Positions 11,804-62,702 of a stretch of 64,000 bases of DNA are shown one piece after another. The translations under genes were made by a program, and so were the position numbers. Within the stretch, counting starts at the first letter, position 1, and each line of letters starts with the position of its first letter. The notes under the pieces are model-generated. The model saw nothing but the letters and a program-made list of their open reading frames with translations, was not told the DNA's origin and ran no database searches. Source of the stretch: Burkholderiaceae bacterium (lineage in GTDB: Bacteria > Pseudomonadota > Gammaproteobacteria > Burkholderiales > Burkholderiaceae_C); NCBI GenBank assembly GCA_023954035.1, contig JAMLIT010000006.1, forward strand, positions 1 through 64,000. The letters are read 5' to 3'.

Positions 11804-11866
11804 AACCAAGCCAAACAGCCCTCCAGCGCTTGCTCCATAAGCGCTGGAAGCTATGAAAAAGGAGCT
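11804..11866 (+). repeat. Palindromic repeat copy R3, convergent junction
   Basis: The stem CCAGCGCTT-GCTCCAT-AAGCGCTGG (11825-11849) is nine base pairs and perfect. It is followed by AGCTATGAAAAAGG, and the left side has AAAAACC. The copy occupies the gap between the convergent hydrolase and glmM genes, and hairpin plus A/T tracts on both sides would suit a bidirectional terminator. Confidence 0.85.
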
Positions 11867-11868
11867 AT

Positions 11869-13203
11869 TCAAACGGCCCGGGCCGCCTCGGCCAGACGCT
11901 CTGCACAGCGGCTGGCCTGGGCCGCGTCGCGCGCCTCGACCATCACCCGCAATACCGGCTCGGTGCCGCTGGCGCGAATCAGCACGCGGCCCAGCGCGCC
12001 CAGTTCGGCCTGCACCGCTTCGGTTTCCCGCACCAGGCGGGTGTTGCTGCGCCAGTCGCTGCCGGGCGCGATCCGAACGTTGAGCAGAATCTGAGGGAAC
12101 AGCGACACCTCTTGCAGCAGCTGCGCCAGGGTGCGGCCACTGCGCACCACGCACTGCAGCACCTGCAAGGCGCTCACCAGACCGTCGCCCGTCGTCTGCT
12201 TGTCCAGCGCGAGCAAATGACCTGAGCCTTCGCCACCGAGCAACCAGCCGCGCTTGGCCAGCTCTTCCAGCACGTAGCGGTCGCCCACCTTGGCGCGCAC
12301 CAGCTGGACGCCGCGTTCGGCCAGCGCCAGCTCCACCGCCATGTTGGTCATCAGCGTGCCCACCACGCCCGGCACGAGTTCGTCGCGACCCATGCGCTCG
12401 CGCGCCATGAGGTAGAGCAGCTCGTCGCCGTTGTAGAGGCGCCCGGCGGCGTCCACCACCTGCAGGCGGTCGGCGTCGCCATCGAGTGCAATACCGTAGT
12501 CTGCATGGTTGGCGCGCACCGCCAGCACCAGTGCGTCGGGGTGCGTGGCGCCCACTTCGTGGTTGATGTTGATGCCGTCGGGCGCGCAGCCCATGGCAAT
12601 CACGTCAGCGCCCAGCTCATGAAACACCTTGGGCGCCACCTGGTAGGCCGCGCCGTGGGCGGCGTCCACCACGATTTTCAGCCCCTTGAGCGTCAGATCG
12701 TGCGCATAGGTGCTCTTGCAAAATTCGATGTAGCGTCCAGCGGCATCGTCCAGTCGGCGCGCCTTGCCAAGCGAGGCCGAATCGGCCCAGACGGGCGCTT
12801 CGGCGAGCGCTTCTTCCACGGCGATTTCCCAGCTGTCCGGGAGCTTGCTGCCCTGCGCGCTGAAAAACTTGATGCCGTTGTCCGGAAACGGATTGTGGCT
12901 GGCGCTGATGACCACGCCCAGGCTCGCGCGCTGGGCGCGGGTGAGATAGGCGACTCCCGGTGTCGGCAGCGGGCCCAGCAGCACCACGTCGACGCCGGCG
13001 GAATTGAAGCCCGATTCCAGTGCGCTCTCGAGCATGTAGCCCGAAATCCGCGTGTCCTTGCCGATCAGCACCGTTGGGCGTTCTTCTCTGCGCTTGAGCA
13101 CGCGGCCGACAGCGTGGCCCAGCCGAAGTATGAAATCGGGCGTGATCGGCGGCTCGCCCACGGTTCCGCGAATGCCGTCGGTGCCGAAATACTGTCTCTG
13201 CAT
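11869..13203 (-). CDS. glmM: Phosphoglucosamine mutase
   Basis: This enzyme (444 aa) converts glucosamine-6-phosphate to glucosamine-1-phosphate for peptidoglycan and lipopolysaccharide. The phosphoserine loop is S-A-S-H-N-P with S102 as the active residue. The metal loop is D-G-D-A-D-R, and the sugar and phosphate sites lie further on (G-E-x-S-G-H; R-x-S-G-T-E-P). GAGAGGA precedes the ATG at good distance. It is the last gene of the rlmE-ftsH-folP-glmM series, the same order as in E. coli. Confidence 0.96.
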
Positions 13204-13230
13204 GCTGTTCCTCTCAGGTATTTTTTCTGT

Positions 13231-14073
13231 TCAAAGGCTTGGTGACGCTGCGCTGCTCGCTGCCTGCCAGACGGCCAGCGCCTGGACGGTCTGTGCCACG
13301 TCGTGCACGCGCAGCACGCGCGCGCCGCGCTCCACCGCCAGCAGGGCCGCGGCAACGCTGGGAATCATGCGCGAGCCCACTTCCAGGCCGCTGACGGCGC
13401 CCAGCGACGACTTGCGCGACCAGCCGGCCAGCAAGGGATAGCCCGCCTGCAGCAGCTCCGACTGCCGGGCGAGCAGCGAAAAGTTCTGCGCTACCGTCTT
13501 GCCGAAACCGATCCCAGGATCCAGCACCATTCGGTTCTTTTCAACGCCCAGCGCATGCAGGCTGGATGCGCGCTGCTGCAAAAAAAGGAGCACCTGACTG
13601 GGCACGTCGCCTTCCATGGGCTGGGCCTGCATGGTCCGGGGTTCGCGATGCATGTGCATCAGGCAGAGGCCGCAGCGGCCGTGCCCGGCGACCACCTGCT
13701 CAGCCCCAGCCTGGCGCAGCGCCCACACGTCGTTGATGATGTCCGCGCCCAGGTCCAGCACCTGCTGCATCACCTGGGGTTTGTAGGTGTCCACCGAAAT
13801 CGGGACGCCGAGCGTCACGGCATCGCGCACCACGGGCAGGACCCGGGCAAGCTCCTCGTCCAGCGGCACCGGCGGGCTGCCCGGTCGGGTGGACTCGCCG
13901 CCAATGTCGAGCAGATCGGCGCCGCCGCGCAGCAGTGCCTCGCAATGGCGCAAAGCAGCCGCACTGCTGGCGTGCTGGCCTGCGTCCGAGAAGGAATCGG
14001 GCGTGGCGTTGACGATGCCCATGACCCGGGGACGACCGAGGTCGATGGTGAATCGGCTGGTTTGCCAGAGCAC
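13231..14073 (-). CDS. folP: Dihydropteroate synthase
   Basis: The folate enzyme (280 aa) condenses p-aminobenzoate with the pterin pyrophosphate and is the target of sulfonamides. The N-terminal signature M-G-I-V-N-A-T-P-D-S-F-S-D (about 18-30) and D-I-G-G-E-S-T-R-P-G are clear. The C-terminal R-V-H-D-V is typical of the TIM barrel. The start is GTG at 14073 with no recognisable Shine-Dalgarno. A hairpin lies 28-48 bp upstream, so transcription from ftsH may be attenuated here. Confidence 0.95.
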   Translation of the reverse strand: MLWQTSRFTIDLGRPRVMGIVNATPDSFSDAGQHASSAAALRHCEALLRGGADLLDIGGESTRPGSPPVPLDEELARVLPVVRDAVTLGVPISVDTYKPQVMQQVLDLGADIINDVWALRQAGAEQVVAGHGRCGLCLMHMHREPRTMQAQPMEGDVPSQVLLFLQQRASSLHALGVEKNRMVLDPGIGFGKTVAQNFSLLARQSELLQAGYPLLAGWSRKSSLGAVSGLEVGSRMIPSVAAALLAVERGARVLRVHDVAQTVQALAVWQAASSAASPSL

Positions 14074-61335: not shown

Positions 61336-61367
61336 GCCGCAGCACCCGTTTTTTTCAAGGAGTTTCC

Positions 61368-62615
61368 ATGGACTTTGACTATTCCCCCAAAACCAAGGAC
61401 CTGCAGGCCCGCCTGCTTCGGTTCATGGATGAGCACATCTATCCCGCCGAGGCCGCCTACACGGAAGAACTGGCCGCCAATACTGCGGCAGGCAAGCGCT
61501 GGACGCCGCTGGAGACCATCGAGCGACTCAAGCCCAAGGCGCAGGCGGCTGGCTTGTGGAATTTGTTCCTGCCAGTGGACACAGCGGAGGCTTCGGGCTA
61601 TCAGGGCGCCGGTCTGACCAACCAGGAATATGCGCCGCTGGCCGAAATCATGGGGCGCGTGCTTTGGTCCAGCGAGGTTTTCAATTGTTCGGCGCCCGAC
61701 ACCGGCAACATGGAAACCATTGCCCGCTACGGCGACGAAGCCAACAAGGCGCGCTGGCTCAAACCCCTGCTGGAAGGAACAATCCGCTCGGCCTTCGCCA
61801 TGACCGAGCCCGAAGTGGCGTCCAGCGACGCCACCAACATCGCAACGCGCATCGAACGCCAGGGCGACGAATACGTCATCAATGGCCGCAAATGGTGGAC
61901 TTCCGGTGCCAACGATCCGCGCTGCGCGGTGTTCATCACCATGGGCAAGACCGATCCGCAGGCGCCACGCCATTCGCAGCAAAGCATGATCCTGGTGCCG
62001 GCGGACACCGCGGGGGTGAAGATCGTGCGCGCGCTCAATGTATTTGGCTACGACGACGCACCCCACGGCCACGCCGAAGTGCTTTTCGAGAACGTGCGTG
62101 TGCCCGCCTCCAACATCCTGCTCGGCGAAGGCCGCGGCTTCGAGATCGCCCAGGGACGCCTGGGCCCGGGGCGCATTCACCACTGCATGCGCTTGATTGG
62201 CCTGGCCGAGCGTGCGCTGGAGCTGATGTGCAAGCGCTCGATGTCGCGCGTCGCTTTTGGCAAAACCGTGGCCCAGCAAGGCGTGACGCAGGAACGCATT
62301 GCCGAAGCGCGCTGCAAGATCGACATGGCGCGCCTGCTGACACTCAAGGCCGCCTGGATGATGGACGTGGCCGGCAACAAGGTGGCCAAGACGGAGATCG
62401 CGATGATCAAGGTCGTCGCCCCCACCATGGCCTGCGAAGTCATTGACTGGGCCATTCAGGCCCACGGCGGCGGCGGCGTCAGCAATGATTTTCCGCTGGC
62501 GTTCTCGTATGCCCAGGCGCGCACCCTGCGCTTTGCCGACGGCCCGGACGAAGTGCACCGCGCCTCCATTGCCAAGATGGAACTGGGCAAATACGCGCCT
62601 GCCAAGCCGCACTGA
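61368..62615 (+). CDS. Acyl-CoA dehydrogenase, ACAD11-like
   Basis: This FAD-dependent dehydrogenase (415 aa) has [14 protein letters not shown] near residue 145, W-W-x-S-G-A in the middle, and C-terminal [11 protein letters not shown]. It resembles the dehydrogenase half of ACAD10/11. AAGGAG precedes the ATG. A continuous open frame joins it to sequence inside the kinase gene, but that is chance. It probably acts on the product of the kinase. It is convergent with the cyclase, with repeat R10 between. Confidence 0.92.
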
Positions 62616-62646
62616 AGTCCGCCGCAGAGCGGGACCGGCGCTTTGC

Positions 62647-62702
62647 TACAAAATAAATAGCTTTTGGTGCTTATCCCGTAAGCGCTAGAGGCTATTTTTA
62701 TC
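62647..62702 (-). repeat. Palindromic repeat copy R10, convergent junction
   Basis: The clearest copy: an outer stem AAATAGC/GCTATTT, an internal loop on each side, and the inner stem GTGCTTA-TCCCG-TAAGCGC. Five T residues follow on one strand and A-rich sequence lies on the other flank. It overlaps the end of the cyclase gene by a few bases. Confidence 0.9.

Follow-up and report, generated by a model that had tools for sequence, protein, structure and literature searches.

Several families of short palindromic repeat have been described from bacterial chromosomes. Repetitive extragenic palindromic (REP) sequences are tied to the REP-associated tyrosine transposase (RAYT) genes that they flank (PMC2817692), and published REP families lie between unidirectional and convergent open reading frames (ORFs), downstream of coding regions and, in some cases, within genes (PMC3733652). 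The Beta-proteobacterial repeat element (BRE) is 75-91 bp long in Bordetella, has a mean GC content of 69%, sometimes occurs in tandem and reaches at most 29 copies per genome (PMC3110155). The comparisons made here extend to the portions of these and the other cited accounts that were available. The repeat studied here was recognised in a 64,000-nucleotide stretch from a Burkholderiaceae bacterium (assembly GCA_023954035.1, contig JAMLIT010000006.1, positions 1 to 64,000; hereafter the window), in which eight copies score at least 37 bits, four of them in convergent gaps (Table 1). It is a unit of about 66 nt, found at the 3' ends of genes, that looks like an apparently undescribed relative of the known bacterial palindromic repeats. 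At either threshold, a comparison with 4227 Rfam covariance models gave no match at the window copies or at those of five further loci, and searches of the open-licence literature returned no recognised description of it.

The resemblance to REPs carrying GTAG or CGTC tags is considerable, as far as the descriptions of these go (PMC3733652, PMC2817692): the element is likewise palindromic, exceeds 100 copies per genome, is spread chromosome-wide and lies mostly in unidirectional or convergent gaps, behind genes, with some copies inside them. It differs from those REPs, again as described, in being about 66 rather than 20-40 nt long, in lacking a GTAG or CGTC consensus tag, in occurring as single copies without frequent inverted pairs and in having no regularly flanked RAYT gene. 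With BRE, as characterised in the account available (PMC3110155), it shares a presence in Comamonadaceae (BRE also being known from Bordetella), a usually intergenic position and some copies in coding sequence. Its length, the GC content of its counted copies (32-53% across the model), its single occurrence and its hundreds of copies per genome separate it from BRE, a distinction drawn from the description of BRE and not from its letters. The occurrence of a palindromic repeat in frame inside protein genes recalls the Rickettsia palindromic elements (PMC10969869, PMC3733652); unlike those, which the parts of the accounts consulted describe as insertions of about 150 bp, it does not lengthen LpxB, the comparison having been made for lpxB only.

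The element was modelled by a 62-column covariance model (R1) made from an ungapped alignment of 21 rows, namely 15 copies found by pattern in the genome from which the window derives, one of which is R10, and six window copies. Hence seven of the eight window copies, R10 included, are training rows and match by construction, and independent support comes from orthologues in other genomes. The counts leave out opposite-strand duplicates, matches below 25 bits and one match cut by the end of its stretch (L061 16563, 25.8 bits). An extended consensus of 130 copies reads, from its 5' end, a TGCTAT block, an A/T stretch, ATAGCTGCTAGCGCTT, the loop, AAGCGCTAGAGGC, TTT and an AAA block, with one hairpin of up to 19 pairs between A/T-rich flanks. 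Conservation extends from approximately column -1 to column 64 (130 of 136 copies), with only background information beyond, and half-sites with up to two mismatches fall from 62 to 2 once the copies are masked, the same number as in the control. These sharp limits and the drop to control level indicate that the element is a discrete unit. They also bear on the idea that pairs of DNA uptake sequences form terminators here, as in Neisseria and Pasteurellaceae. A palindrome in convergent gaps does resemble paired uptake sequences, which in the part of the account available are also repeated hairpins enriched at tail-to-tail junctions (PMC1852404), but no short uptake word is over-represented as a single unit outside the element, and we give this explanation hardly any credence.

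The palindrome itself is plain, in that slid partners pair far less, whereas evidence for its maintenance by compensatory change is slight. In alignment A2, 77.4% of positions are paired against 76.7% after shuffling, with 6 pairs changed on both sides against 3.2 (12/500 shuffles); the corresponding figures are 68.9 against 69.2 and 5 against 3.5 for R2 orthologues, and 68.0 against 66.2 and 12 against 7.2 (17/500 shuffles) for R3 orthologues. Compensatory change is thus at most a hint, absent at R2 and slight at R3, and covariation was dropped as proof of structure. The most conserved letters are AGCT, in columns 14-17, which stay fixed when their pairing partners vary; among the orthologues of R2 and R3 too, AGCT is invariant or nearly so and the partners are variable. 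Judged from the alignments, the conserved feature seems to be sequence recognition, beyond pairing alone. The flanking tracts (columns 5-10 and 48-53) swap runs of A and runs of T between copies, and the 5' tract does so between R2 orthologues as well.

The level of repetition is high. The source genome is an incomplete metagenome-assembled genome (MAG) of 3.33 Mb in 76 contigs, estimated as 89% complete, and was compared with a complete genome, G120. Matches of at least 25 bits number 98 in 858,557 bp of the former (window included) and 38 in 400,000 bp of the latter, densities that extrapolate to about 380 and 300 copies per genome. The model search found at least 150 matches in each of genomes G000, G120 and G072, a few of these being the same copy on opposite strands. 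As the initial annotation had anticipated, the repeat is family-wide: 54 of 150 genomes sampled from the family, representing 50 of 141 genera, contain a match. Genomes referred to below as repeat-free are those without a match at E 0.01 in this survey, which was run with stricter filters. On two complete chromosomes the copies are fairly evenly spread, at 4-13 per 200 kb (147 and 150 matches listed). A replication-oriented signal was considered and rejected, the best two-arc split fitting 0.62 and 0.61 of the listed matches and being equalled by 39 and 45 of 200 shuffles. Copies rarely cluster, with one pair less than 400 nt apart among 136. The single close inverted doublet among these 136 copies is at L102 13184 and 13264.

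The distribution of copies among gaps was studied with genes from our own calling script. The starts that it assigns are approximate, and one or more of its ORFs in the window are wrong; six of the 29 copies in called genes are no more than 90 nt from a gene edge and could belong to intergenic sequence. The initial annotation placed the repeat at five of nine convergent junctions in the window. R3, R7, R8 and R10 are strong matches, and R9 is a weak one (E = 0.29 from an unfiltered search of 401 bases), which makes four, perhaps five, of nine. R9 may plausibly be an eroded copy, since its length is complete and G136 bears a clear copy (L122 610, 50.8 bits) at the 3' end of the orthologous hydrolase gene; pairwise alignment of the two was uninformative. 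The script calls seven convergent gaps in the window, four of them occupied. Outside the window the enrichment of convergent over tandem gaps is upheld, both in the source genome (19 of 82 against 47 of 499 occupied; Fisher p = 0.001) and in the sampled stretches of G120 (9 of 44 against 18 of 237; p = 0.02). In the pooled data a copy is present in 28 of 126 convergent gaps, in 65 of 736 tandem ones and in 6 of 127 divergent ones.

The window nevertheless exaggerates this pattern, since elsewhere the occupancy of convergent gaps is 22% and copies in tandem gaps are the more numerous. With the window included there are 66 occupied tandem gaps and 32 convergent ones, figures that do not support the view of the element as mainly one of convergent junctions. 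A convergent gap contains two gene 3' ends, and the tandem rate alone would then predict a convergent occupancy of 16.9%, against 22.2% observed (p = 0.07). As the two ends nearly account for the enrichment, the governing rule appears to be mainly nearness to gene 3' ends. In tandem gaps, 49 of 66 copies have their stem no more than 25 nt from the stop codon of the upstream gene, in either orientation. There is no orientation preference, 34 tandem copies running along the genes and 32 opposed to them. With about one copy per 9 kb, a repeat that marks gene 3' ends across a large bacterial family could confound or shape maps of transcript ends.

On balance we favour, with slightly better than even confidence, the reading that this is a REP-like repeat family of Comamonadaceae, a single hairpin of about 66 nt, associated with 3' ends and acting mainly as a barrier or processing end of mRNA. 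On this reading whole copies are gained and lost just behind stop codons, whichever way they point, and persist where promoters are undisturbed, first in convergent gaps, then in tandem ones and rarely in divergent ones. Transcribed copies would fold into a hairpin acting at mRNA 3' ends, chiefly by blocking 3'-5' exonucleases or by providing a processing end; termination would be limited to copies with a good U tract, and most tandem copies would be read through. The fixed AGCT and CTAT may be recognised by a protein, which could also be the agent of the element's spread.

The initial annotation proposed instead a family-wide bidirectional intrinsic terminator, with a GC stem and a U run on each strand, every copy halting transcripts from both sides. 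The convergent enrichment and divergent rarity are consistent with this, as are mean U scores beside the stem of 1.3-2.1 in convergent and tandem copies, against an intergenic background of 0.53. At a modest threshold, a U score of at least 1.2 on both strands, 61% of 33 convergent, 47% of 66 tandem and 39% of 23 in-gene copies qualify, and the mean stem energies are -15.6, -13.4 and -12.5 kcal/mol respectively. Convergent copies are thus the best in both regards, but the differences between contexts are small (p = 0.19 for both-strand U score, convergent against tandem; p = 0.07 for energy, convergent against in-gene). Tandem copies have a U score of 1.57 on the gene strand and 1.39 on the antisense strand. 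Reversed tandem copies have a slightly better gene-strand tract, the comparison of minus-side scores with forward copies (p = 0.045) favouring an effect of direction, but that of the plus side gives p = 0.71.

A strict scan found terminators on both strands in none of the 21 occupied convergent gaps of the source genome and in 33% of 9 in G120, so that the claim of a U run on each strand holds for part of the copies. In the source genome the scan predicts a terminator about equally often in occupied and empty gaps, whether convergent (24% of 21 against 22% of 32) or tandem (24% of 46 against 28% of 254). In G120 the occupied gaps are richer in predicted terminators than the empty ones, both convergent (67% of 9 against 46% of 13) and tandem (67% of 15 against 35% of 98), which leans towards a terminator. 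The little covariation and the in-gene copies argue the other way, as do 41 of 66 tandem copies in which the stem ends no more than 30 nt before the next called start. Ten tandem pairs with such short spacing between stem and start were put through Pfam, one partner remaining unmatched at 1e-8 in three of them; the pairs found include polyprenyl synthetase and DXP synthase (presumably ispA-dxs), aminotransferase and homoserine dehydrogenase, and acyl-CoA dehydrogenase and CoA transferase. Some of these, for example polyprenyl synthetase followed by DXP synthase, look like operons, in which a strong terminator would need an offsetting promoter within the upstream gene. Tandem copies dominate and mostly lie near the next starts, and the quality of the U tracts bears no clear relation to transcription. 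A general bidirectional terminator is therefore unlikely, and we regard the family-wide version, in which each copy acts, as distinctly so; some convergent copies could stop transcripts arriving from both sides. The initial annotation is thus partly supported, its observation being largely right and its interpretation as a terminator too strong.

Variation at orthologous sites was studied in 80 loci, 49 of which hold the gene that ends at R2. The R2 gap measures 57-99 nt (one 282) in ten loci with a model match, whereas nine of 14 orthologous gaps without a match measure -4 to 24 nt, the other five being 51-178 nt; one 59-nt gap visibly bears a copy missed by the model. This contrast in gap length implies that the R2 copy has been gained or lost as a block. 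A copy lies in the same gap and the same orientation in 7 of the 80 loci, and also in G141 and G136. R3 is found directly behind the hydrolase gene in 9 of 80 loci, always on the minus strand, and also in G141, G136 and G085. The loci bearing R2 or R3 belong to Simplicispira, Acidovorax, Giesbergeria and unclassified MAGs, with one orientation per site. In the window, the product of the gene next to R3 shares 88% identity with its Simplicispira hankyongi counterpart, so the DNA probably comes from a member of the Comamonadaceae close to Simplicispira/Acidovorax. R7 is kept in G141 (L117, 58.6 bits), and G120 has a gap of 0 nt and no copy; in G085 a copy lies behind rnr without an adjacent nnr (L126 3161, 34.6 bits). 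In the R8 gap the copies of G136 and G072 are reversed and near the end of aroC, that of G120 lies somewhere in a 2286-nt interval, and none was found in G141. R10 occurs behind the dehydrogenase gene in G136 and G120, with none found in G141 or G085.

Where gene order has changed, the hydrolase gene and glmM lie apart in G136 with a copy at each, and in G141 the FimV-like gene has a copy with no hydrolase gene adjoining. Partners from convergent junctions of the window thus keep copies of their own when separated (L124 9067 and L120 849 in G136; L119 33 in G141), as if the repeat were a participant in, or a survivor of, rearrangement.

Such presence and absence among related genomes is what might be expected of a selfish or relic repeat with no present function, whose position reflects tolerance only, and the rule of two 3' ends and the probable degradation of R9 fit this as well. 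The retention of R2 and R3 across genera with AGCT nearly fixed, and that of AT-rich rare codons in the copies inside genes, are less easily reconciled with it, and we consider a purely selfish or relic origin very improbable.

The copies inside genes are the surprising part of the distribution, and offer a direct test of whether the repeat is selected as nucleic acid. Model matches in lpxB (E<=0.5) are present in 15 of 20 carriers and in none of 10 repeat-free genomes. The adjacent SpoU-family methylase gene gives the same figures, 15 of 20 and 0 of 10, in a partly different set of genomes; both counts come from match positions read by hand. Both genes carry the element in frame. The LpxB residues encoded by it align without gaps to solved chains of lipid-A-disaccharide synthase (5w8n/5w8s), and at the element lpxB shows no gap against nine of ten repeat-free relatives, the tenth being two codons shorter. 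Across 30 relatives the segment has repeat-like letters in most carriers, G088 being a carrier without it; the repeat-free genomes use ordinary GC-rich codons there. Several repeat-free relatives have a SpoU-family gene whose length at the element is different, and in this gene an insertion is possible on the evidence of the alignments.

The composition of these segments departs strongly from that of their genes. Third-position AT over the element is 0.53 in lpxB and 0.60 in the SpoU-family gene in the 20 carriers, against 0.18 and 0.17 elsewhere in the same genes and 0.15 and 0.14 over the corresponding segments of the 10 repeat-free relatives. Rare codons make up 37 of 440 over the element and 58 of 7114 elsewhere in lpxB, and 31 of 440 and 31 of 4411 in the SpoU-family gene. 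Codon identity at the same residue is not higher over the lpxB element (0.570 against 0.560) but is higher over that of the SpoU-family gene (0.628 against 0.551), and the codon argument rests on composition rather than codon identity. As drift toward the genome norm would be expected across such a divergence of genera, something would appear to maintain these codons.

These codons can be accommodated if the element is a DNA-level site bound by a protein, such as a nucleoid, topoisomerase or recombination factor, and located wherever it does no harm. The absence of an orientation preference relative to genes, the fairly even spread along the chromosome with no arc-wise strand bias beyond that of shuffles (among the matches listed), and an AGCT that is invariant when its pairing partner varies would all suit such a site. 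Its roughly 60 conserved positions are far more than binding needs, its preference for 3' ends may be mere tolerance, and no candidate protein was identified; we hold this explanation to be unlikely. A more specific proposal, which we advance only tentatively and think doubtful, is that the repeat is recognised as nucleic acid and can be written into sequence already present, and not only inserted, the native codons of lpxB, and perhaps of the SpoU-family gene, having been replaced without lengthening LpxB and then held at the nucleotide level across many genera. If so, a repeat family would constrain core genes from within.

Several results weigh against the preferred account of a REP-like element acting at mRNA 3' ends. 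Besides the terminator counts of G120, insertion does not account for the lpxB element, where LpxB has gained no residues, and both the formation of an RNA hairpin and its importance are predictions. The consensus tag is ATAG, not GTAG or CGTC; in columns 12-15 ATAG is present in 99 of 130 copies and GTAG in 13. No mobilising enzyme was found in a survey of the RAYT-type domain PF01797 in carriers and repeat-free genomes. Genes with this domain occur in 25 of 27 carriers and in 14 of 19 repeat-free genomes. Of 27 carrier PF01797 loci, only 5 have copies (E<=0.01) nearby, two of these copies following the gene directly among the matches listed. Since repeat-free genomes possess the gene almost as often as carriers do, and copies do not gather around it, a REP-RAYT partnership was rejected.

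A GGGGACACATC-like motif, whole or partial, lies behind several RAYT-type genes (L252, L254 and L266, among the matches listed), and may be the true partner repeat of the RAYT-type transposase.

Table 1. Copies of the repeat, candidate copies and adjoining genes in the window (genes assigned by Pfam where stated)
Feature	Position	Strand	Score (bits)	Context and remarks
In-gene copy	6731-6792	+	37.8	Non-training; inside DnaX-type clamp-loader gene (6174-8033, -, Pfam), antisense to gene
R2	9634-9695	+	61.4	Fills 57-nt tandem gap of two minus-strand genes
Neighbours of R2	9692-10753; 9134-9634	-		Aldo/keto reductase; tRNA-editing domain (Pfam)
R3	11804-11865	-	53.1	Convergent gap alpha/beta hydrolase / glmM
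In-gene copy	24861-24922	+	57.3	SpoU-family methylase gene (24325-25098, -, Pfam), antisense, codons 59-80
In-gene copy	26202-26263	+	53.6	lpxB (25729-26886, -, Pfam), antisense, residues 208-229
Weak unconfirmed candidate	34327-34388	+	20.2	E=0.13 in 460,600 bases; DXP reductoisomerase gene (33404-34594, -, Pfam)
R7	42467-42528	-	60.3	Convergent gap nnr / rnr
R8	50869-50930	-	53.4	Convergent gap glyA / aroC, beside aroC stop
R9, possible eroded copy	54840-54901	-	8.2	Full length; convergent gap hydrolase / FimV-like
R10	62646-62707	+	64.7	Convergent gap acyl-CoA dehydrogenase / FHA-domain gene (a cyclase in the initial annotation)

Some further features of the window were recorded. The gene calls omit the signal recognition particle RNA gene and a globin ORF (5133-5492, Pfam Bac_globin). 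The ORF called at 18149 is wrong; that at 18158-19165 (Pfam DUF4149) yields a convergent gap of nine bases, the size given for one junction in the initial annotation. The gap between the globin gene and ybaB contains two 41-nt direct repeats (85%) at 5629-5801, a type of repeat different from the element, and a sub-threshold match to Rfam sX9 at 5673-5746 on the minus strand. Two near-identical tandem tRNA-Leu(CAG) genes lie at 44920-45227, each with a strong terminator-like hairpin behind it (45013-45039 and 45196-45227). A ZMP/ZTP riboswitch (RF01750) is located upstream of glyA at 49356-49504 on the plus strand, with a score of 42.8 bits against a gathering threshold of 39.

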